Part shown: positions 2,841 to 37,473 of the stretch, piece after piece
Position numbering within the stretch: position 1 is the first letter of the stretch
Layout of the letters: each line of letters opens with the position of its first letter
NCBI GenBank assembly: GCA_027365485.1
Contig: DAHXNH010000177.1
Span: 1-37,473, forward strand
Source: Clostridiales bacterium
GTDB lineage: Bacteria > Bacillota > Sulfobacillia > Sulfobacillales > Sulfobacillaceae
DNA length: 37,473 nucleotides
Direction of reading: 5' to 3'
The notes under the pieces: model-generated
What the model was told of the DNA's origin: nothing
What the model saw: only the letters and a program-made list of their open reading frames with translations
The model's database searches: none
Program-made: the position numbers and the translations under genes

Positions 2841-3165
2841 GCGTCGGCATCGTCGGACAACACGACGGGGATGCGCTGGTCCTTCGAGAGGCCAAAAGCG
2901 ACGCTCGTATTGACCGGATAGGCCTCCTATGAGCGAGGAGTATCGCGTGCGACATTGGGTAGATGGTGATCGCAAAAAGCGCTGGATCTCGACCGCAGAC
3001 GTCTGTCCACGCGATTCAAACCCATCGTGAGTGAGGATGGCCCTGAAGCCGACTTTGCGCCCAATGCGCTGTCGCGAAAAGTCTTGGCCGTTGCCTATGG
3101 GCCGGGCGAAACTCAGAAGATTTCAGTCGATCGATAATCGGTGGAAAAATGCGCCGGGCTTTAGT
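2841..3165 (-). pseudogene. IS4-like transposase N-terminal remnant, copy A
   Basis: Read on the minus strand from an ATG at about 3165, the start reads MFTKARRIFPPI. It is followed by DRLKSSEFRPAHRQRP and then, after a shift of frame, by FRAIL and NRVDRRL, and finally VEIQRFLR-type words. These fit the N-terminal part of an IS4-type transposase as I remember that family. At least two frameshifts and the missing DDE region make it a pseudogene. The same gene fragment in the opposite orientation is at 9016. The family label is moderate; the pseudogene status is clear. Confidence 0.55.
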
Positions 3166-4137: not shown

Positions 4138-4890
4138 CGGTTCCCAACATCCACTCAGATTTCGGGTACCGCCAACCGTAGGACACCCTGTTGCCTGTTG
4201 ACACCAAAGGTCTCATCCAATCAAGCCCATCGCTGCCAAACAAGACAACCTGGCGTTTAGCTTTTCGGTGAGGTTGGTGGTTGAGTAATCGGTTGGACCA
4301 AACCCAGGTGATTAGATATGAAGCTATGAGGTGAAAGGCGTGGCCGCGTTGTCGCCTGATGGCGTCCTGTCGAACTGGGGCGAAATCCCGACGAATCCGG
4401 GTGCCACACCAGTCAGACTGCCCGTGCTAATTATTTCACCGGAGGCGGAACGTTGGTAGGGAGCATGCCACAGATCGAAGCGGCTTTTCACCTCTACTCC
4501 TCGCGGACAACAATTGACGAAATTTCGTAACGATGGGCGACACTTCTGCGAGCGAATTCGGTGGGTTTGCTCCTCAACTTAAACCATCAATTGCGATCCG
4601 CGAAAAGTATACATATAGGAAGACATGCTAGCGCGCGGTGGGGGGCTGATTCTTACGAGGATGGTTCGGCGTGGCCTGGCGATAAGATCGCGCCATCAAA
4701 CGATGAAACAATGGTTCAACGAATAATCCCTCGGGTATCAACTTAGTAAATGACCCCCCGCTTTTTCAAAATAGTTGCGAATCTATTAAGTGAAGGGTCG
4801 TATTGGACCCTCACAAAGCTGGTTCCAAACGGTACCCCGATGTTTATGGTCTGGGATTTTGGATGCAAGGAAATCGCCTGCGGAAATTAA
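4138..4890. other. Long non-coding stretch with hairpins
   Basis: No gene is supported. A 61-codon frame (4561-4746) lacks a ribosome site and any motif. Segment 4328-4440 could fold as one closed domain: GGTGAAA (4330-4336) pairs with TTTCACC (4434-4440), with several internal complementary pairs including CAGTCAGACTG. A second hairpin lies at 4790-4817 (AGGGTC pairing with GACCCT around GTATTG). The promoter of the surface protein should be in the last 100 bases, but I cannot name its boxes with confidence. Confidence 0.35.
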
Positions 4891-4911
4891 GGCGTATAAG
4901 GAGTGATTGAT

Positions 4912-7900
4912 TTGTCCATAAAACATTCGAGATTGGCTCTGCTTGGTGCCATTGCCGCCACCGGTAGCTTACTGGCGATGGGCGCGCTGCCCTTAAGCCA
5001 GACTTTTGCTGCCAATCCCCCGCATCTCGTGATGTCTGGGCCTTCCGGAGCTCTCTCCGTCGGTGCCAATGCTGCGTTCTCGGCCCAGGTAGCTGGTGCG
5101 ACGGGTACCCCGATGTACCAGTTCCGGGAGGGCAACCGTATTATTCAGCGATACTCTACCAATAATCACTTGATACTCGATCATTTGAGTGCGGGTCAAT
5201 ATACGATCACCGTGCGGTCCTTGGGCATGGATCAGGAGCGACGAGGTCAGTGGAATGCCTTTCGGTCGACTCAACTGCATTTCACGGTTGGTAACCCTCA
5301 TTTGACTGTTACCGGGCCCGCCAATGGCGTGGCCAAAAACGGCACAGCGACCGTATCAGCGCAAGTGGTCGATGCGTTGGCGACGCCATATTATCAGTTC
5401 GTGATTGACGGTAAGACGGTGCAAGCGTATTCCACCAAGAATACCTACACCGCGACCAATTTGCAGCCAGGTACCTACCAGGTCTTGGTGGAATCCCTGG
5501 GACCTGCCCAGTACCATAACCACGAGTATTATTTCGCTCGAAAGCAGACGCTGACCTTGAACGTGCCGACCCCACCCGTGAGCCCACAATTGACAGTCAC
5601 AGGACCGACCAACGACGTGGCCACGAATGGGCAGGCCACGCTGACCGCCCAGGTCATCCACGCAACGACCAGCGCTCCGTACTTCCAGTTCGAAATCAAC
5701 GGGTCCGTGGTGCAAGCCTTTTCGACCAAAGACACGTACACCGCGACCAATTTGCAGCCTGGCACCTATCAGGTCTTAGTAGAGTCCTTGGGTCCGGCTC
5801 AGTATCAACGGGGACAATATGGCCTGGCTCGCAAGCAAAGCTTGACTTTGACCGTGCCCACGCCCGCAGTGCCGGCGACGATTACGGCAGCGCAGGCTGA
5901 CGTCGCCACTGGGGCGTCGGACACCTTAACTTTGAGTGGAGTGCCTGCCAGTGCTCCCGTGACCTGGTCCGTGGTGAGTAGCAACAGTTCGACCGGGCTC
6001 GTCTCTGGTACCACGGACACGGCTACCTTTGTCGGCACGGCCGGTGGAACATACACTGTGCAGGCATCTGTCGATGGCGAGACCACGACTACGCACGTGG
6101 TGGTCTACGGTCAGGCGGCTGGGGTGACGCTTGCGCCGGCAGCCACTACGGTGATTGCTGATGGTCAAGCCAGCGACGCAGTTACCGTCAACGTGGTCGA
6201 CCAAAATGGCAATCCGGTTGGGGGCTTCAACGGCAGCGTGAATATTAGTGCGATGTCGGGGGTGACCTACAGTCAAAACGGCACCACCTTGACTCCGGCC
6301 AATGGGCAAGTCACGGTAGCGGTGACTAACGGCACGGCTACCGTCGACGTGGGTCAAGTCTCGGTGCCTGGAATCTCCATCGCGCTGACTTCGAGTGGGC
6401 TGACTAGCAGCAATGGGCAGACGATTGCCAGCACGCCCAGTTATGGCACTACGACGATTAGCAGTGCGGCGCAACAGGCCACCAGCTTGAAGATTGTCAA
6501 CGCCCCTACCTATCTGGATGCCAACACCCAGGGCACTCAAACCTCCCCGATTGCGGTGGTCGTCGAAGATCAAGCAGGGTATCCGATGTTGACTGGTACG
6601 GACAGCATCAACATTAGTGTGTCCGGTCCGGCTGGGCTAGTCGACAGTAGCACCGACCAGACGACCTTGGCTTACGACGGCGGCGCAGCACCCGCAGGCA
6701 GTACCAATACCTCGGCTACGTTTGAATTGGCCAGCGAACAGGGCAAGACCGGTGCGGTGACCATCACCGCCACGAGTTCCGGCTTGACCACGGCGACATC
6801 GACGGTGCAATCTGTGATTGCCGGAGTGCCTTCGCAGATGGAGGCGTCGTTGTCGGCGAATACATTCGCCGAGGGCAGCTCCGGGGTAACCTTGAATCTC
6901 CAAGCCGAAGACAGCCAGGGGGCGCCGGTCAACTACACGTCGCCCGTGTCGATCTTGGTGACCAAGCAAGGATCGACGACGCCAGCGAGTAACATCTTGG
7001 TTAACGGCCAGGCGGATAGTAGTTCGACTCAAGTGTCCCTCAACAGTAGTGGCGCCGCTTCCGTGACGTTGGCGGATAGTGGGCATGGGGCCAACGCAGG
7101 CGTCTACACGGTGACTGTAACTTCGGTATCAGGCGCCCAGTACAGTTTTTCGGCCAAGACCCTCACCTTGACGGAAACCGCAGCAGCCTTGGCCGGTGCG
7201 AAATTCACCAGTCCCAGCAGTACGCTGACGGTGCCGATTACGGACCCTAAAGCGCAGTACACCCTACAACTCGAGGACGCGTTTGGCAATCCCTTAAGCC
7301 AAAGCGGGGTGAAGGTGGAAATCTACGCCGCAGGATCGTCGAGTGACAATTCATCGTACGGGCAAGCTACAGTCAACGGTACCGCGACCAGTTCGAGCAC
7401 GCCAATTACGGTGACGACCAACAGTAGCGGGCAGGCTACGGTCACGTTGGCTGCCGAGGGATTCCAAGGAGCCCAGTGGGTGCTCGACGCCACGGTCCCG
7501 GAGCAAACGGGAGTCAATGCGGCTCTGCAAACGACACCTTCGGCGGCCATGGTCGTCTCGTCCACGGTGGCCCAAAGTCTTGGGGTGACCCTGCAGGATC
7601 AGAGCACTGGGGCCGACTACCAGTCCTCGGGATATGCGCTGGCCGGTGACACCGTGGATGCGACCGTGACCGTGCAAAACCAATATGGTGCACCGATGAC
7701 CGGCAGCCAGACCGTCCAACTGACGATTCCGGCAGGATTAAGCGGGATGGAGCCCACTGGGGCCAGCGACAGTTCGACTTGGACTCAAGGAGCCACCAAT
7801 ACCGTCAATCTGACTGTGAACTTGAGTGCCAATGGGACCGCGACTATTCCCTTAGAAGCGTGGTCGGAGGGGTCCACGACGTTGCAAGCTTCCGTTCCTG

Positions 7901-8553
7901 GGGTCAGTAGCCCAGTTACTGGGCAGGCTTCCATCTTCATCCAGGCGGGTACGGTCAGCAATGTCGGTCTCTTCCAAAATGGGACTATGATCAGTGGCAG
8001 CAATAAGCTTACGGTGAGTGCGAATACGCCAGTGGCCTTGACTTTAGAGTCTACCGATCTGGCCGGGAATCCAGTTCCTGCAACCGGTAGTGAAGTCGTA
8101 GCCCTGACCGATAACAACGGAGGCTCGTTCCGTATGAGTGCCACCGGCGCCCCCACCAACACAGTGACCATTCCCGCCGGTCAAACCTCGGTGACCATCT
8201 ACTACGTCAACGCGGCCGCAGGGAGCTATGTCCCGCAAGCCAGCTTGGGCGCGGACAAACTGAGCGTGGTGGGACCATCGAGCTACACAGTGAGCCCGGG
8301 GGCGACACAGACGATTAACGTTCTCGTCGCCGACAGTTCTGGAAATCCTGTCGCCGGGCAGGCCGTGACGGCGTCGGTGCCTAACAGTCAAGGAACAGTG
8401 ACTCCATCGACGACGACTGGATCTAATGGCACCGCCAGCTTCAGCTACACGGCGCCCTCATCGGGATCGGGCACGGCGACGGTGACATTGACGGTACCAG
8501 GTCAAGGAGCTACGGGTTCGAGTTTGACTCAGACCGTAACCATTAACTACTAA
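4912..8553 (+). CDS. Large secreted Ig-like surface protein
   Basis: A 1213-residue exported protein. The start is taken as TTG 4912, which lies 8 nt after AAGGAG (4898-4903). The upstream in-frame GTG at 4903 overlaps that site and is unlikely. Residues ~1-31 form a signal peptide (basic MSIKHSR, hydrophobic core, LSQTFAA cleavage region). Three related ~90-residue modules follow (about 37-315), each with a TGPxxxV opening, a YxFxxxG core, QPGTYQV and LGPAQY. The rest is a chain of Ig-like/invasin-type beta domains rich in Thr, Ser, Gly and Ala with repeated VxDxxGNPV words, ending in a typical Big_1-like domain. No cell-wall anchor or S-layer homology motif is visible. It is probably an adhesin, S-layer component or extracellular scaffold, which is inference. 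It is monocistronic, with a terminator at 8623, and is flanked by inverted IS4-like remnants. Confidence 0.85.
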   Translation: MSIKHSRLALLGAIAATGSLLAMGALPLSQTFAANPPHLVMSGPSGALSVGANAAFSAQVAGATGTPMYQFREGNRIIQRYSTNNHLILDHLSAGQYTITVRSLGMDQERRGQWNAFRSTQLHFTVGNPHLTVTGPANGVAKNGTATVSAQVVDALATPYYQFVIDGKTVQAYSTKNTYTATNLQPGTYQVLVESLGPAQYHNHEYYFARKQTLTLNVPTPPVSPQLTVTGPTNDVATNGQATLTAQVIHATTSAPYFQFEINGSVVQAFSTKDTYTATNLQPGTYQVLVESLGPAQYQRGQYGLARKQSLTLTVPTPAVPATITAAQADVATGASDTLTLSGVPASAPVTWSVVSSNSSTGLVSGTTDTATFVGTAGGTYTVQASVDGETTTTHVVVYGQAAGVTLAPAATTVIADGQASDAVTVNVVDQNGNPVGGFNGSVNISAMSGVTYSQNGTTLTPANGQVTVAVTNGTATVDVGQVSVPGISIALTSSGLTSSNGQTIASTPSYGTTTISSAAQQATSLKIVNAPTYLDANTQGTQTSPIAVVVEDQAGYPMLTGTDSINISVSGPAGLVDSSTDQTTLAYDGGAAPAGSTNTSATFELASEQGKTGAVTITATSSGLTTATSTVQSVIAGVPSQMEASLSANTFAEGSSGVTLNLQAEDSQGAPVNYTSPVSILVTKQGSTTPASNILVNGQADSSSTQVSLNSSGAASVTLADSGHGANAGVYTVTVTSVSGAQYSFSAKTLTLTETAAALAGAKFTSPSSTLTVPITDPKAQYTLQLEDAFGNPLSQSGVKVEIYAAGSSSDNSSYGQATVNGTATSSSTPITVTTNSSGQATVTLAAEGFQGAQWVLDATVPEQTGVNAALQTTPSAAMVVSSTVAQSLGVTLQDQSTGADYQSSGYALAGDTVDATVTVQNQYGAPMTGSQTVQLTIPAGLSGMEPTGASDSSTWTQGATNTVNLTVNLSANGTATIPLEAWSEGSTTLQASVPGVSSPVTGQASIFIQAGTVSNVGLFQNGTMISGSNKLTVSANTPVALTLESTDLAGNPVPATGSEVVALTDNNGGSFRMSATGAPTNTVTIPAGQTSVTIYYVNAAAGSYVPQASLGADKLSVVGPSSYTVSPGATQTINVLVADSSGNPVAGQAVTASVPNSQGTVTPSTTTGSNGTASFSYTAPSSGSGTATVTLTVPGQGATGSSLTQTVTINY
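5023..5865 (+). repeat. Three tandem ~90-codon modules in the surface protein
   Basis: Modules start at about 5023, 5299 and 5587. The second and third are close copies at DNA level: ACCGCGACCAATTTGCAGCC occurs at ~5450 and again at ~5740, and the segment encoding TYQVLVESLGPAQY is shared. The first is more diverged (TITVRSLGMDQ). This shows recent duplication of module 2/3 and an older duplication for module 1. In the protein it produces a repetitive N-terminal stalk before the Ig-like chain. Confidence 0.8.
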
Positions 8554-8622
8554 CAATAGCCACTGTATTAGAGGATAGGCGATAATCAAGGACTCGGATT
8601 AGCCGAATCTCGAATCGCAAAG

Positions 8623-8656
8623 AGCCAGGGCCTTCAGCGAGAGGGCCCTGGCTTTC
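8623..8656 (+). terminator. Intrinsic terminator after the surface protein gene
   Basis: AGCCAGGGCC (8623-8632) pairs perfectly with GGCCCTGGCT (8644-8653) around an 11-nt loop and is followed by a short T-run (TTTCGT). It lies 70 nt after the stop codon and fits a rho-independent terminator. Confidence 0.8.
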
Positions 8657-8926
8657 GTCTATGCAGTGTGGGGCCATGGATCGCAAAACCTCTGGGGCGG
8701 ACGACTTTGCAGCGGCCTCGGTCGACCGGTTTCATGGCACAGTCGGCGGTGGTGTGCCGAGCGATGCCTATACTATGGCGGCCAGTGTGTTCCGATGGCA
8801 TTGCCGGTATGGACTGGGCGTCTTCAAATATACGGGCAGCGGATTTGCGTGATCGTGAGAACGTTCTTCAAGAGTGCGGTATGATAGCCACTAAATGGTC
8901 GTGGGGGACGCTAAATCCAGTGAGCA
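8657..8926. other. Intergenic stretch, no supported gene
   Basis: Three overlapping plus-strand frames of 60-90 codons run through here. One reads smoothly (WASSNIRAADLRDRENVLQE at ~8815-8873), which hints at decayed coding DNA. I do not recognise the family and no start site supports it. Confidence 0.3.
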
Positions 8927-32088: not shown

Positions 32089-33312
32089 ATGAGCATAGGT
32101 GCAACACTGGCAGCGATGATGTTATCGGGATTGTTAAACGGGAGTCCGACACCCACTGCCTTAGGTCGTGAGGCGCAGGCAGAACTCAAAAGTCTACTCG
32201 TCGACGCCGGATTATCCCCGCAGTTGAAGTGGGATTCGGCGATATCACTAAAATTAGCTCAGGTTGAGTTTTTGTCGGTGACTGGGCAACCAGCCACAAT
32301 TGCAGCTCTTAGGGATTATGATAGCCGCCGAAGGCCATCTGCGCCGTTTCGGCGGATGGCGGATGGGTGGCTTCAAACCTGGTATCCTCATGACTCGGCA
32401 GCGAAGGCTTTGGACGCCTTGGAACGCCGTTTGGGGGTAGCCAAAGGCCCGTTAAACGGACGACTTGCGGTGACTTTGATACATCTGTGGGGTATTCGCC
32501 AGGCGTATCTTCACCACTGGCGCTACCGAGCCGAACCCAATGACACCGTGACTGACTTGTCGGTCGCCAGTGGACTCTCGTTGGCAGAAGTTGCCAAAGA
32601 CAATCCCCTGCATCTTCCGTACCTGTGGATCGGTCAGGTGATCGCTTGGAGACCACCACCGACGCCCGCTCAGCCTGCACGACCGGAAGTAGCTTCGGTT
32701 CCCTCAAACTTAGGCAATTCTGCGCCAACCACGCCGTTAGCGACAACCGGAGTGTTGGCGGGGCTTCGCCCGGTCGCGGGTTTAGCGATCATCCATCCGA
32801 CGGCCGAAGCGCTGGCCGCCCTGTTGACGGTCCAGCCCTTAGGACAGTCGGTGACGATTGTGGTGGAGGCAGAGTGGGCGCTTTTGCACCCTAAGTTGAT
32901 CGATCAAGCGATGAGGCAAGACGATACCATAACGTTTGATGGCTACAGTACCGAACGACTCGACGTCCTACCCCAAGCTGGCGTTCGTCAGGAATTGAGA
33001 TGGAGTCGGTCCATCGCGCATACCATCTTCAAGCAATCTCTCGTCTACTTGGTGGATGTGCCAACAAGGTCGAATGCGATGGTGGTCCATACGGCAGAAT
33101 CGCTGAACTTCCGGATCATTTCGGCCGTGTTTTGGGCGCTGCCCGCAGGGGGATGGGCAACGACCGCCAGTCGCCTCTTAGTGCAGCATCCCAATCAGCT
33201 GGCGGTCATTGCTCCACCCGCATCGGAGCGAGTGTGGAAGGACTTCTTTGCCGAAGTGGCTCGTGAACACACTACATTGGAAACGCTCACTCAATTGTGG
33301 TCGAGCAGTTAA
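32089..33312 (+). CDS. LysM plus inactive deacetylase-like protein
   Basis: A 407-residue protein. Residues 1-20 are a weak signal or anchor. An alpha-helical domain spans about 24-145. A single LysM-like repeat (YRAEPNDTVTDLSVASGLSL, 146-165, to LWIGQVIAW) would bind peptidoglycan, and a Pro-rich linker runs to ~220. The C-terminal ~180 residues follow the order of a NodB polysaccharide deacetylase: VTIVVEAEWALLHPKLIDQA is the strand with the hP motif, and TITFDGYS stands where EIgnHty would be. The metal His pair and the catalytic Asp are not seen, so it is probably a non-enzymatic wall protein, which is inference. ATG 32089 has AGGTGA 7 nt upstream. It follows the TIGR04086 gene by 54 nt. 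Confidence 0.6.
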   Translation: MSIGATLAAMMLSGLLNGSPTPTALGREAQAELKSLLVDAGLSPQLKWDSAISLKLAQVEFLSVTGQPATIAALRDYDSRRRPSAPFRRMADGWLQTWYPHDSAAKALDALERRLGVAKGPLNGRLAVTLIHLWGIRQAYLHHWRYRAEPNDTVTDLSVASGLSLAEVAKDNPLHLPYLWIGQVIAWRPPPTPAQPARPEVASVPSNLGNSAPTTPLATTGVLAGLRPVAGLAIIHPTAEALAALLTVQPLGQSVTIVVEAEWALLHPKLIDQAMRQDDTITFDGYSTERLDVLPQAGVRQELRWSRSIAHTIFKQSLVYLVDVPTRSNAMVVHTAESLNFRIISAVFWALPAGGWATTASRLLVQHPNQLAVIAPPASERVWKDFFAEVAREHTTLETLTQLWSSS

Positions 33313-33545
33313 GAGAGGGGCTTCTCTGTAGAATCGGGAGCATCGGATAAACTAGCCTCGGCGTGACGAATCATCACCTTAACCATATTGCCGCCGATCG
33401 TCCCTCCGATTCTTCCCAAGTCCTTGGTCGGCATGTCCGCCCAGCCCTTATTCTCAATGGCGGAAGTCAACCCTAAACCCTCAGCTACTTCATACTTAAA
33501 TCGATCGCGCAAGGACGCGTTTAGAAGATTTCGTTGTTTCGCCAT
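33309..33545 (-). CDS. Alpha/beta-type small acid-soluble spore protein
   Basis: A 78-residue SASP. It has FKYEVAEGLGL (Gpr cleavage region), ENKGWADMPTKDLGRIGGTI and then GGNMVKVMI, the complete two-helix signature. AAGGAGGG precedes the ATG at 33545. It differs from the SASP at 26259 in having the full IGGTIGGNMV block. The stop overlaps the end of the convergent 32089 gene by 4 bp. Confidence 0.93.
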   Translation of the reverse strand: MAKQRNLLNASLRDRFKYEVAEGLGLTSAIENKGWADMPTKDLGRIGGTIGGNMVKVMIRHAEASLSDAPDSTEKPLS

Positions 33546-33549
33546 GTCC

Positions 33550-33875
33550 TATCCCTCCTTCGCCGATAGTTTGACCCAGCTTGGGGGATGTTCATGTTAG
33601 GATTGGTTGTCAACCTGATGGAATTTTGGCACCAAAGCCTTTTTCGATGTGCAGGTCCTCTGCTCGTGAGCAAAACGGAGCTACTCCTTGGGGTCACATT
33701 AGGGCCTATCAATAAAGATGGAGAAATCATGGGAGTGAAGTGGATAGATGGATCATGCGGAAAAATCCCACATCAGTTACCTGGAAATATCGACCGTAAG
33801 CGGGTCAAGCATCTAGGTCGTAAGGTTCGAGGTGTGGGCGACAAGTAATCATTTGACCCGGCGAACATTTTCGAC
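33550..33875. other. Intergenic stretch, no supported gene
   Basis: An 86-codon plus-strand frame (33588-33848) and a minus-strand frame (33521-33730) are open but carry no motif. istB, which should follow istA in an IS21 element on the minus strand here, is absent. Confidence 0.3.
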
Positions 33876-33879
33876 CGAA

Positions 33880-35295
33880 TCAGGCTGCCGTCGGGCGGTC
33901 GTAGGTGGCGACCACTCGATGGTCCCATTGAATTTCGATCCCTGAGGGAGTGCGCCGCACTTCCACATGGTGACCAGCCGCCTCCCACGGCATGGCGAAG
34001 CGGTGCCCCTCCCAGTGTACGAAGGCGTCGGTGGTGACTTTCCGATCCCAAGGTTCTCCAAAGGCCCAGAGGTGGCTGAGGCCATAGGGGGTCGCCCCAG
34101 CAGAATCGGCCGCCCACCGGTCGGCCGGCTTCGCAAAGGTGGTGCCATGAATCCGTTGGTCGCGCTCTTCGGTCCAGCGCGCGACCAGGCTGTTCAGGCC
34201 CGCGAGCGTGATGGCGTCGGGCACGCGAGGCCAAAAGTTTTGGCGGACATAGGACACCGTCCGTTCGACCTTTCCCTTGTTACGTAAAGATTTACGTAAC
34301 AAGGGTTACGTTAAGACTTTCGTTATGTAAAGTTCACGCCAAGAATGGCGGCCCATCAACGAAAACATGCTCAAAGACTATACATAACAATCGGCACAAC
34401 GACCCCGTGATCTGCAGGTAGAGCCCTCCACACGAGCATTCCGAGGGCAACATCGTGTCAAATCCTGTCGAACATTCGACGAACGTCGCAAAATAGGTCT
34501 CGGGAATCGAATGTGTTATGTTAAGAGATTCTCTGGCCAAATGGCGATATAGCGCCGTTTGGTGTCTTAACTTTACATAACGAAAGTCTTAACGTAACCC
34601 TTGGTCCGGGCGCGATAGGGCTTGGCGGCTTTGGGCCGAAACCCATGAAAGTCCGCAAACGCTTTAAACCGGGGGTTCCACACCACCTCGCCATCATACG
34701 GATGGCTGACCACCATGGGCGTCATGTTGTCCGACAAGATCTGGGTCGGGACACAGCCGAACCAGGCGAACGCGTGCTCCAAACACTGGAACAACGTGTC
34801 TTGGCGTTGATCATGGACGAACTCGATATACATCCGACGCGAATAGCCCATCGTGTAGGCGAAGATATAAAGTTTCCGCGGCCCGTCTGGATACACCAAC
34901 GTCCCAAAGTCCGCCCAATCACACTGCGCCTGCTCGCCTGGCGCCGTTTCAAAGCGGGGCGTCGGTTCCACTCCCCGCTGCGACCGCAGCGGCGCCACAG
35001 ACTGCTTCACTAAACTCAAGCTGCCGGTAAAGCCTCGCTGGTGCAGTTCTTCCCACAGTACTTGGGCGTTATGACACCCCTGATCCCATCGCTCGGCCAG
35101 ATACGATTCATAGGGATCCAGTTTGCTGCCCCGAGCCCGTCGAGGTCGAGTGCTCTGTGGGGTCGGGTCCGTCACGACCTTCCGAATGGTCTTCGGATCC
35201 CGCCCCGTCGCGACACTAATGGCCTGAATGGATTCCTTGTTGCCAAATTGCGTCATAATGGCTTGCGCCTCCTCGCGCGAAAGATAATATGCCAT
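33880..35295 (-). pseudogene. istA: IS21-family transposase IstA, interrupted
   Basis: The N-terminal part (35295-34600) has the helix-turn-helix MAYYLSREEAQ with ATGRDPKTIRKV. Two DDE aspartates follow, in QCDWADFG and ILSDNM. The reading PYRARTKG breaks at ~34603 and continues at ~34274 with GKVERTVSYVRQNFWPR, containing the final Glu. A 318-bp miniature element plus its target duplication lies between, so DD and E are separated. Removing it restores TKGKVER exactly. The C-terminus ends at 33880. istB is missing, so this is an immobile remnant, though the left end repeats survive. Confidence 0.93.
34280..34597. mobile_element. 318-bp miniature inverted-repeat element inside istA
   Basis: It is flanked by direct repeats CCCTTG (34274-34279 and 34598-34603), a 6-bp target duplication; the original istA site contains the word once. 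Perfect 32-bp inverted repeats lie at 34303-34334 and 34569-34600 (GGGTTACGTTAAGACTTTCG... at the left). The left tip additionally has the palindrome TTACGTAAAG-AT-TTACGTAA-like (34280-34296). Similar TTAYGTWA words recur inside. A 68-codon minus-strand frame (34334-34540) has a CSCGG word but no recognised family. It encodes no transposase and would need to move in trans. Confidence 0.85.
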
Positions 35296-36330: not shown

Positions 36331-36479
36331 CCTACACCACGGCACCAGCTTCCTACTCGATAACCCGGGGTGGGCCATGAATCAGGCGAGGACATCTTGG
36401 CGTCAAAACTGTTCCGAGTCAGAAAGACATCGCCGTCAAGGACGCGGGGGGATCTAGAGCAGAAATCACCACGAGAAGG

Positions 36480-36945
36480 CCGCATTCGGTCGGCCCCCGC
36501 TCTGAAGGGAGAGGGCTCCTGAGTGGGAGCAGATCCGCGGCCGATTTTGAGCGGTACCGCCGACGGCGATGCAGCCGGTAGAACTCGTGAATGCTTTGAA
36601 GTCAGGCGAGGCTCCACGCAGCGTACGTGGCATCGGCCTTGCCCACGTCGAAAAAATTCGGCGAATATGTGCCCAACACCACGCATGGAGGAACTCTTCG
36701 AGCATGGCCCGATAGCCCGAATAATAGTCCGTAATCAGCAATTTGTTTAGCCACTCGGGGAGATCGTCCCCGTCGGGCAAAGCTTGCAAATGATCGCGGG
36801 GCACTTGCCCGCTCCGGGTTGGACTGAGCAGAAATCCGTCGACTGCGGGCCCCGAAAGACCCATAACCACCCAACGCTCCACGATAAATCCTGTGGGGGT
36901 CGACGCACTAGTTGGCCCGACGGTCCGTAAAGCAACCAAAAAGCC
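36480..36945 (-). pseudogene. IS66-type transposase remnant
   Basis: On the minus strand the reading FIVERWVVMGLSGP or, in the next frame, WLWVFRGP, then FLLSPTRSGQVPRDHL, ITDYYSGYRAM, LHAWCWAHIRRIF and, after another shift, SIHEFYRLHRRR follows the IS66 (TnpC) core. This is the DGY-like turn, the C-AH-RR-F motif and the LY helix. Frameshifts and the missing N-terminus make it a pseudogene. It sits directly downstream of the Uma2 gene. Confidence 0.65.
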
Positions 36946-36949
36946 GAGA

Positions 36950-37473
36950 TTACCTATCGAAAAGGTCCGCGACAGCCAGCGACACACCAGGAAACAGGGT
37001 GCTTTCGACAACCTCGCTCTTACGGAAGGGCCCTGTCACCTGGTAACCGTCCGGAGTCAAGCGGTATATGGCCATGGTCTGCATGTCGGGATCCACGATC
37101 CAATATTCTGCTATCCCAAAACGGCGGTAAATTTGCGCCTTAATTCCGAGATCTCGAACGCGTGTGCTGGGGGACAAAACTTCGACCAACAAATCGGGGC
37201 GGCTTTGGACGTTCGCATCGGTAATGATGTTCAGCCGCTCCGAACGGATGAAGATTACATCGGGCTCGACAACATTGTATGCGTCCAATATCACGTCAAA
37301 CGGAGCCACGTACACTTGTCCATGTCCCTGAGCCTCCAAACCGTGAAACCAACGATATAATGCCTGCACGATGCGTTGATGCTTGCGAAGCGGTGACGGA
37401 CTCGCCTCTAAGTCTCCTTCCAGAATTTCGTAGCGCTTGCCGTCGTCGGGCACCCCCGCCAAATCGGCTACCG
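36950..37473 (-). CDS. Uma2-family (DUF820) protein, start outside window
   Basis: At least 170 residues of a Uma2/DUF820 putative restriction-like nuclease. The opening VADLAGVPDDGKRYEILEG is typical, so the true start is probably a few codons beyond the right edge. Key residues are EPDVIFI (D), DLLVEVLSPSTR (E) and IKAQIYRRFGIAEYWIVD (K/Y), the PD-(D/E)XK-like core. The C-terminus is complete (VADLFDR). These genes are common in multicopy families in thermophilic Firmicutes and cyanobacteria; the biological role is unknown. Confidence 0.9.
   Translation of the reverse strand, partial: VADLAGVPDDGKRYEILEGDLEASPSPLRKHQRIVQALYRWFHGLEAQGHGQVYVAPFDVILDAYNVVEPDVIFIRSERLNIITDANVQSRPDLLVEVLSPSTRVRDLGIKAQIYRRFGIAEYWIVDPDMQTMAIYRLTPDGYQVTGPFRKSEVVESTLFPGVSLAVADLFDR

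Follow-up and report, generated by a model that had tools for sequence, protein, structure and literature searches.

A gene-less miniature element within an IS21 istA gene that is very probably moved in trans by RIT tyrosine recombinases

An IS21 istA gene in a Clostridiales bacterium is split by a 330-bp element at positions 34274-34603 of the window (the whole 37,473-nucleotide stretch of DNA that was analysed). Judging from sequence comparison, this element is very probably a RIT-dependent MITE, a gene-less element with both complete RIT ends that RitA, RitB, and RitC would move in trans, the mobilisation being suggested by its matching ends and targets. RIT elements have been known since 2009. 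They are about 3.5 kb long, and ritA and ritC are flanked by a 28-9 bp inverted repeat together with a palindrome that overlaps it (PMC3414803). In terminal arms, sub-terminal sites, one-sided palindrome, and target the window element agrees with these elements; it differs from them in being without genes. Its features and those of the interrupted gene, in the order of the istA coding strand, are as follows.

34604..35295, minus strand: 5' part of the interrupted IS21 istA (NCBIfam transpos_IS21; Pfam rve)
34274..34603, minus strand: whole element with its 6-bp cores, 330 bp (insert proper, 324 bp), read on the minus strand, which is the istA coding strand
34598..34603, minus strand: O1, 6-bp core at the simple end on the istA 5' side; CAAGGG on the istA strand, the same 6-mer being native in the empty paralogue
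34306..34597, minus strand: non-coding body P...P', 292 bp, identical in length to the body of the G008 mini-element
34569..34597, minus strand: terminal arm P, 29 bp, with site 1 at 34588-34597 and site 2 at 34571-34580 (offset +17)
34516..34525, strand not given: inverted site 3, at offset 72 from the 34597 end, an offset that also peaks in 50 RIT bodies
34378..34387, strand not given: inverted site 3, at offset 72 from the 34306 end
34306..34334, minus strand: terminal arm P', 29 bp, with site 1 at 34306-34315 and site 2 at 34323-34332
34300..34305, strand not given: O2, inverted copy of the 6-bp core, CAAGGG
34280..34299, strand not given: N20, palindromic 20-bp spacer TTACGTAAAGATTTACGTAA between O2 and O3
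34274..34279, minus strand: O3, 6-bp core on the istA 3' side
33880..34273, minus strand: 3' part of istA, which resumes in KGKVER

On the istA strand the arrangement reads istA5'-(CAAGGG)-TTACGTTAAGACTTTCGTTATGTAAAGTT...292-bp body...GTCTTAACGTAA-(CCCTTG)-TTACGTAAATCTTTACGTAA-(CAAGGG)-AAAGGTCGAA-istA3', so that the 6-mer occurs three times, as O1, as the inverted O2, and as O3. The perfect inverted repeats, put at 32 bp in the original prediction, measure 35 bp (34300-34334 and 34569-34603) and combine the 29-bp arm with the 6-bp core; the longest such repeat in 300 shuffles of the region was 12 bp, which excludes a chance origin. The CCCTTG flanks reported earlier are present at 34274-34279 and 34598-34603, and the recurrent TTAYGTWA words were seen again. 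The left-only palindrome near the terminus is likewise real, spanning 34274-34305 as an almost perfect 32-bp palindrome with 15-bp arms and a 2-bp centre. It is one-sided because of the third, inverted copy of the 6-mer (CAAGGG, 34300-34305), and what had been taken for an asymmetric terminal palindrome is a second core with a 20-bp spacer, found on the same side of the target in every case. Both ends of the element carry recombinase-type sites at offsets 0, +17, and inverted +72. No recombinase gene was found within 34274-34603 in the open reading frame listing, and ritA-ritB-ritC, the three adjacent and overlapping genes by which a RIT is recognised, are absent; as in a MITE, the element is short and non-coding and has inverted repeats in common with autonomous RIT relatives.

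Deletion of 34280-34603 joins the flanks into an open istA frame (...RARTKGKVERTV...), as had been predicted, and the genome of the window also holds an uninterrupted istA paralogue (G000:C437:39977-40276) that is 97% identical, has CAAGGG once at the site, and matches the window istA at every position over the 60 bp spanning the insertion. An assembly artefact is ruled out by this empty paralogue together with the copies in other genomes. Since all three cores of the window copy equal the native target 6-mer, that copy alone cannot separate donor from target. On the minus strand after the interrupted istA (window 33312-33880) there is no istB-sized open reading frame, and this IS21 copy was therefore probably incomplete already. 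A further open reading frame at window 36466-37011 (minus strand) contains CWAHIRR, the motif of IS66 into which RITs insert elsewhere, and is probably an uninterrupted IS66 fragment.

Longer relatives with the same ends and enzyme genes of their own, which the original prediction had proposed should be looked for, were found. The full RIT L079 of Paenibacillus alkaliterrae has ends identical to those of the window element over 27/27 bp and occupies the same istA codons. In G026, a genome of the same family, the same palindromic end (L008) sits in the same codons of a diverged istA and leads into tyrosine-recombinase genes; L008 carries ritC and part of ritB, and its RIT end shares the arm of the window element. 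The insertion codons common to the window element, L079, and L008 are those of IstA K-G-x-V-E. A full ritA-ritB-ritC trio, with Pfam Phage_integrase in each gene, is present at L060 6307-9747, and gene order and size identify these relatives as RIT elements. Elements with window-type ends encode only tyrosine recombinases. The end identity and the shared target thus support the earlier view that the element is non-autonomous and needs an enzyme in trans, although that enzyme is most likely the RitABC tyrosine-recombinase trio and not a DDE transposase. The exact end pattern had no match in viral_contigs.

The layout O1-P...P'-O2'-N20-O3 recurs in RITs of many phyla. A sample of 135 further RitC loci was assembled, picked by RitC similarity and so non-random, and the ends were located by a scan blind to the 6-mers; in another scan, which required matching cores and is biased for that reason, N20 was 20 bp in nearly all RITs. 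Among 50 non-redundant sites, which include the window element, offsets 0, +17, and inverted +72 form peaks across the RIT bodies. All three cores were equal at 18 of these sites, two were equal at 20, and all differed at 12, with a mean of about 1 mismatch in 6 positions within an element versus 4.4 between elements. Because O1 and O3 are often unequal, the flanking 6-mers are not a gap-filled duplication, and the 6-bp target duplication of the original prediction is better described as a recombination core, sister elements having unequal 6-mers on their two sides. Copies without target duplications, which that prediction had equated with random rearrangement, carry no such meaning for a core-based mechanism. 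By analogy, the flanking 6-mers appear to act like the 6-bp crossover cores or footprints of SE and Tn554 (PMC10214605).

A lesser but appreciable possibility retains the RIT reading and supposes that the 6-mers match because donor and target cores must be homologous for crossover to occur, in place of an SE-like, homology-free transfer. The 18 of 50 sites with three equal cores, the low within-element mismatch of about 1/6, and the identity of all three window cores with the native target are consistent with this explanation. However, the cores of L181, L183, and L114 are unequal at at least 3/6 positions, and core similarity would be expected in any case, the targets being the same conserved codon stretch.

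N20 lay on the istA 3' side in 12/12 joined istA sites, while the orientation of the body varied; L059 and L060, for example, have inverted bodies at the same target with the same flanks. The palindrome was also considered as a part of the ritC end, and this was rejected, since inversion of the body leaves it on the target side. In 100%-identical bodies with an asymmetric N20 (three G328 copies; L180/L184), N20 and body invert together. These recent copies are consistent with a circular intermediate in which either of two cores can be used. In the proposed scheme, recombination of O1 with O3 would yield a circle with the near-symmetric junction P'-O2'-N20-O-P, offering two usable 6-bp crossover cores, and integration would join either of these to a 6-bp target site. 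Use of either core would place N20 always on the same side of the target with the body facing either way, and co-inversion of N20 and body is what such a circle predicts. By analogy with SE, the target 6-mer would end up at O1 and the donor 6-mer at O3. If the SE rule holds, by which the circle retains O1 and integration puts the target 6-mer at O1 and the donor 6-mer at O3, the 6-mers of the G328 copies (TAAAGG x3; CAAGGG, TAAAGG, TAAAGG; TAAAGG, CAAGGG, TAAAGG) could be arranged as a series of two jumps, and the three-copy core pattern is compatible with a strand-biased, SE-like circle carrying the left 6-mer; a search for an uninterrupted target of G328 copy C, as a check on the native 6-mer, found none.

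Alternatively, the opposite body orientations may have arisen after integration, through inversion by O1 x O2 recombination, which we regard as unlikely. In favour of such inversion, O1 and O2 are inverted cores that are equal or similar, and the L169/L172 pair, which is more diverged (97%), has N20 inverted without the body; this pair resembles an N20-only inversion and counts against the circle scheme. A flip of the body alone would spare N20, yet in G328 and L180/L184 both are inverted. Also counting against our main reading, target arms show almost no likeness to RIT arms; a proposed mimicry of the RIT arm by the target arm was rejected, with 2.9/10 matches at the junction versus about 2.5 elsewhere.

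Copies in related genomes, which the original prediction had proposed as a check, were found as mini-elements, related or analogous, in about seven other genomes of the family (G008, G033, G019, G018, G030, G012, G025, G005). The G008 element (G008:C106, L260), which lies in istA after ...GWEKG, has a body of 292 bp, homologous to and colinear with that of the window element but inverted, with agreement at 106/232 core positions against a shuffled mean of 59 and maximum of 85 (5000 shuffles). Further mini-elements in this bacterial family were found with a sequence model built from the window and G008 elements; this sequence-only model (R1) also matches RIT ends, and weak matches were inspected by eye. 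The G033 and G019 copies are 97% identical over 283 bp with different flanks, G018 has a fragment in istA (92-93%), the G030 element is at about 70%, G025 has one in istA, and G012 yielded a further one through the model. A 293-bp element of G019 (L299) lies in a group II intron-type reverse transcriptase with O1 CCCGCC and O2 and O3 both CGACCC, the mini-element L297 has the unequal 6-mers GACAGG/GAAGGG, and in G005 a 404-bp element carrying TCGCAA x3 lies in IS66. Several of these elements have one end decayed or missing, and different RITs may have given rise to some of them independently.

About 215 bp from the 404-bp element, L261 ~2597-2628 (G005:C1:586096-586127) holds a solo O-N20-O palindrome without a body beside an IS66 remnant, apparently a RIT relic. 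A relative of the 404-bp element occurs in the same IS66 motif at L278 ~6006-6124 (G015:C14:198006-198124), where O2 retains the donor 6-mer TCGCAA and CCGGAA lies beyond N20, followed by a tnpB-like gene. Two RITs inserted in IS66 (L061 / L062, G005:C1 ~482-516 kb) have exchanged flanks, one with two 3' halves and the other with two 5' halves of IS66, indicating a ~30-kb inversion between the copies. Like L061, a RIT in IS66 on a Bacteroidetes MAG contig (L098) has N20 palindromes on both sides, with 6-mers GTTGGG / ACTGGG, a state that is possibly the product of recombination between copies.

Three mini-elements could be paired with RITs by ends and target: the window element with L079/L008 in istA (0/27 mismatches for L079), the G008 element with L059/L060 in istA (2/27), and G019 L299 with L067 in a reverse transcriptase (2/27). 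These pairs suggest that the ends set which recombinases act and hence the landing site. It is quite improbable that the window element is instead the dead remnant of a full RIT that entered istA, lost its genes in place, and is not mobile. The identity of its ends and target with those of full RITs and its single copy in the genome would fit such a remnant; but the G008 element equals it exactly in body length, with a core colinear beyond the shuffled maximum, and the near-identical G033 and G019 elements occur at different flanks.

Complete recombinase trios are present in the window's own genome at L232 (G000:C262) 4332-7572 and L233 (G000:C413) 5496-8766. Their arms (TTATCCCGA, TTATCCGAG) are unlike the arm of the mini-element (TTACGTTAAG), and these two RITs were therefore rejected as partners, which implies that the helper is absent from the assembly. 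The single copy in its own genome and the lack of an active partner in the assembly count against the RIT-dependent MITE reading; several copies at different sites, as is usual for MITEs, occur in the wider group but not within this genome. A GC-rich hairpin, TTGGACTAAACCGCTTCGCGGTGGTTAA, adjoins both the G008 mini-element (L260 ~2990-3030) and an own-genome RIT (L232 ~7690). In L260 it truncates the mini-element at the O2 core and is followed by a tyrosine recombinase and an IS91-like gene.

Conventional MITEs moved by DDE transposases are likewise non-coding elements of about 300 bp with inverted repeats that borrow their enzyme from an autonomous relative, whereas the window element is putatively moved by tyrosine recombinases, has no true target duplication, and is highly site-specific. 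That it is itself such a MITE with a 6-bp target-site duplication, as its shortness, lack of coding capacity, perfect inverted repeats, 6-bp direct repeat, and interrupted gene might indicate, is very improbable and appears largely refuted by copies in which O1 and O3 differ, since gap filling cannot produce unequal flanking 6-mers, same-end elements encode only tyrosine recombinases, and the inverted third 6-mer is left unexplained.

Integron cassettes and CALIN also depend on a tyrosine recombinase that moves them in trans; the window element differs in having no noted attC-like site, in occupying transposase codons and not attI, and in its RIT-type ends. SE, GInt, and Tn554 have tyrosine recombinases and target specificity in common with it, and SE and Tn554 have donor-footprint 6-bp cores (PMC10214605), but they carry two or three recombinase-type genes with accessory genes and have two junction cores versus three here. 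In the literature searched, neither an N20 palindrome nor miniature derivatives were found for SE, GInt, or Tn554. The partner elements of the window element carry ritA-ritB-ritC and occur in many phyla, in place of the intA, tfp, intB, and srap genes and Gammaproteobacterial host of SE.

RITs have been reported inside IS66 tnpA and radC (PMC2864759), and RIT transposition has had no laboratory reproduction, with target specificity listed as untested (PMC10214605). We translated 20 joined sites and checked them against Pfam. Targets were IstA-type rve at K-G-x-[VI]-E, IstB at Walker A, IS66 at conserved A-H-A-R-R or G-R-K-N stretches, IS4-type transposases at the Y-R-E region, group II intron-type reverse transcriptases at P-Q-G-G, a tyrosine recombinase at H-x-L-R-H, RadC, amidoligases, and methyltransferases (the NPPF case without a Pfam match). 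The motif names are assumed from general knowledge, and IstA K-G-x-V-E is presumably the position of the catalytic glutamate. By eye, and tallied after seeing the data, about two thirds of the 50 sites fall in recognisable catalytic or nucleotide-binding motifs, mostly those of other mobile elements. The insertion site would be set by the recombinases reading the ends, here at the codons x-AAR-GG of IstA K-G-x-V-E.

A broader reading, which we advance tentatively and rate a little short of even, is that RITs and their gene-less satellites represent three-core tyrosine-recombinase transposition through a pseudo-symmetric junction P'-O'-N20-O-P, with recombinases specialised for the catalytic-motif codons of other mobile elements' enzymes (the IstA catalytic Glu, IstB Walker A, IS66, IS4-type YREK, and the group II intron reverse transcriptase), disabling competitors, and that the satellites form the first tyrosine-recombinase-dependent MITE family. 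As part of this reading, inteins and homing elements would be comparable in exploiting conserved active-site codons. In the RIT literature consulted we found no description of gene-less RIT derivatives, three 6-bp cores, or active-site-codon targeting, in line with the earlier suggestion that the element may be undescribed; parts of the RIT anatomy (the palindrome's core) or targets may already have been published.

In sum, the exact ends, 6-bp crossover core, predicted circle junction, gene-less minimal substrate of ~330 bp, and precise target make transposition in trans directly testable. The RIT-dependent MITE reading would extend MITE-type parasitism from DDE transposases to tyrosine recombinases, and it points to a group of elements that may choose active-site codons as landing sites.
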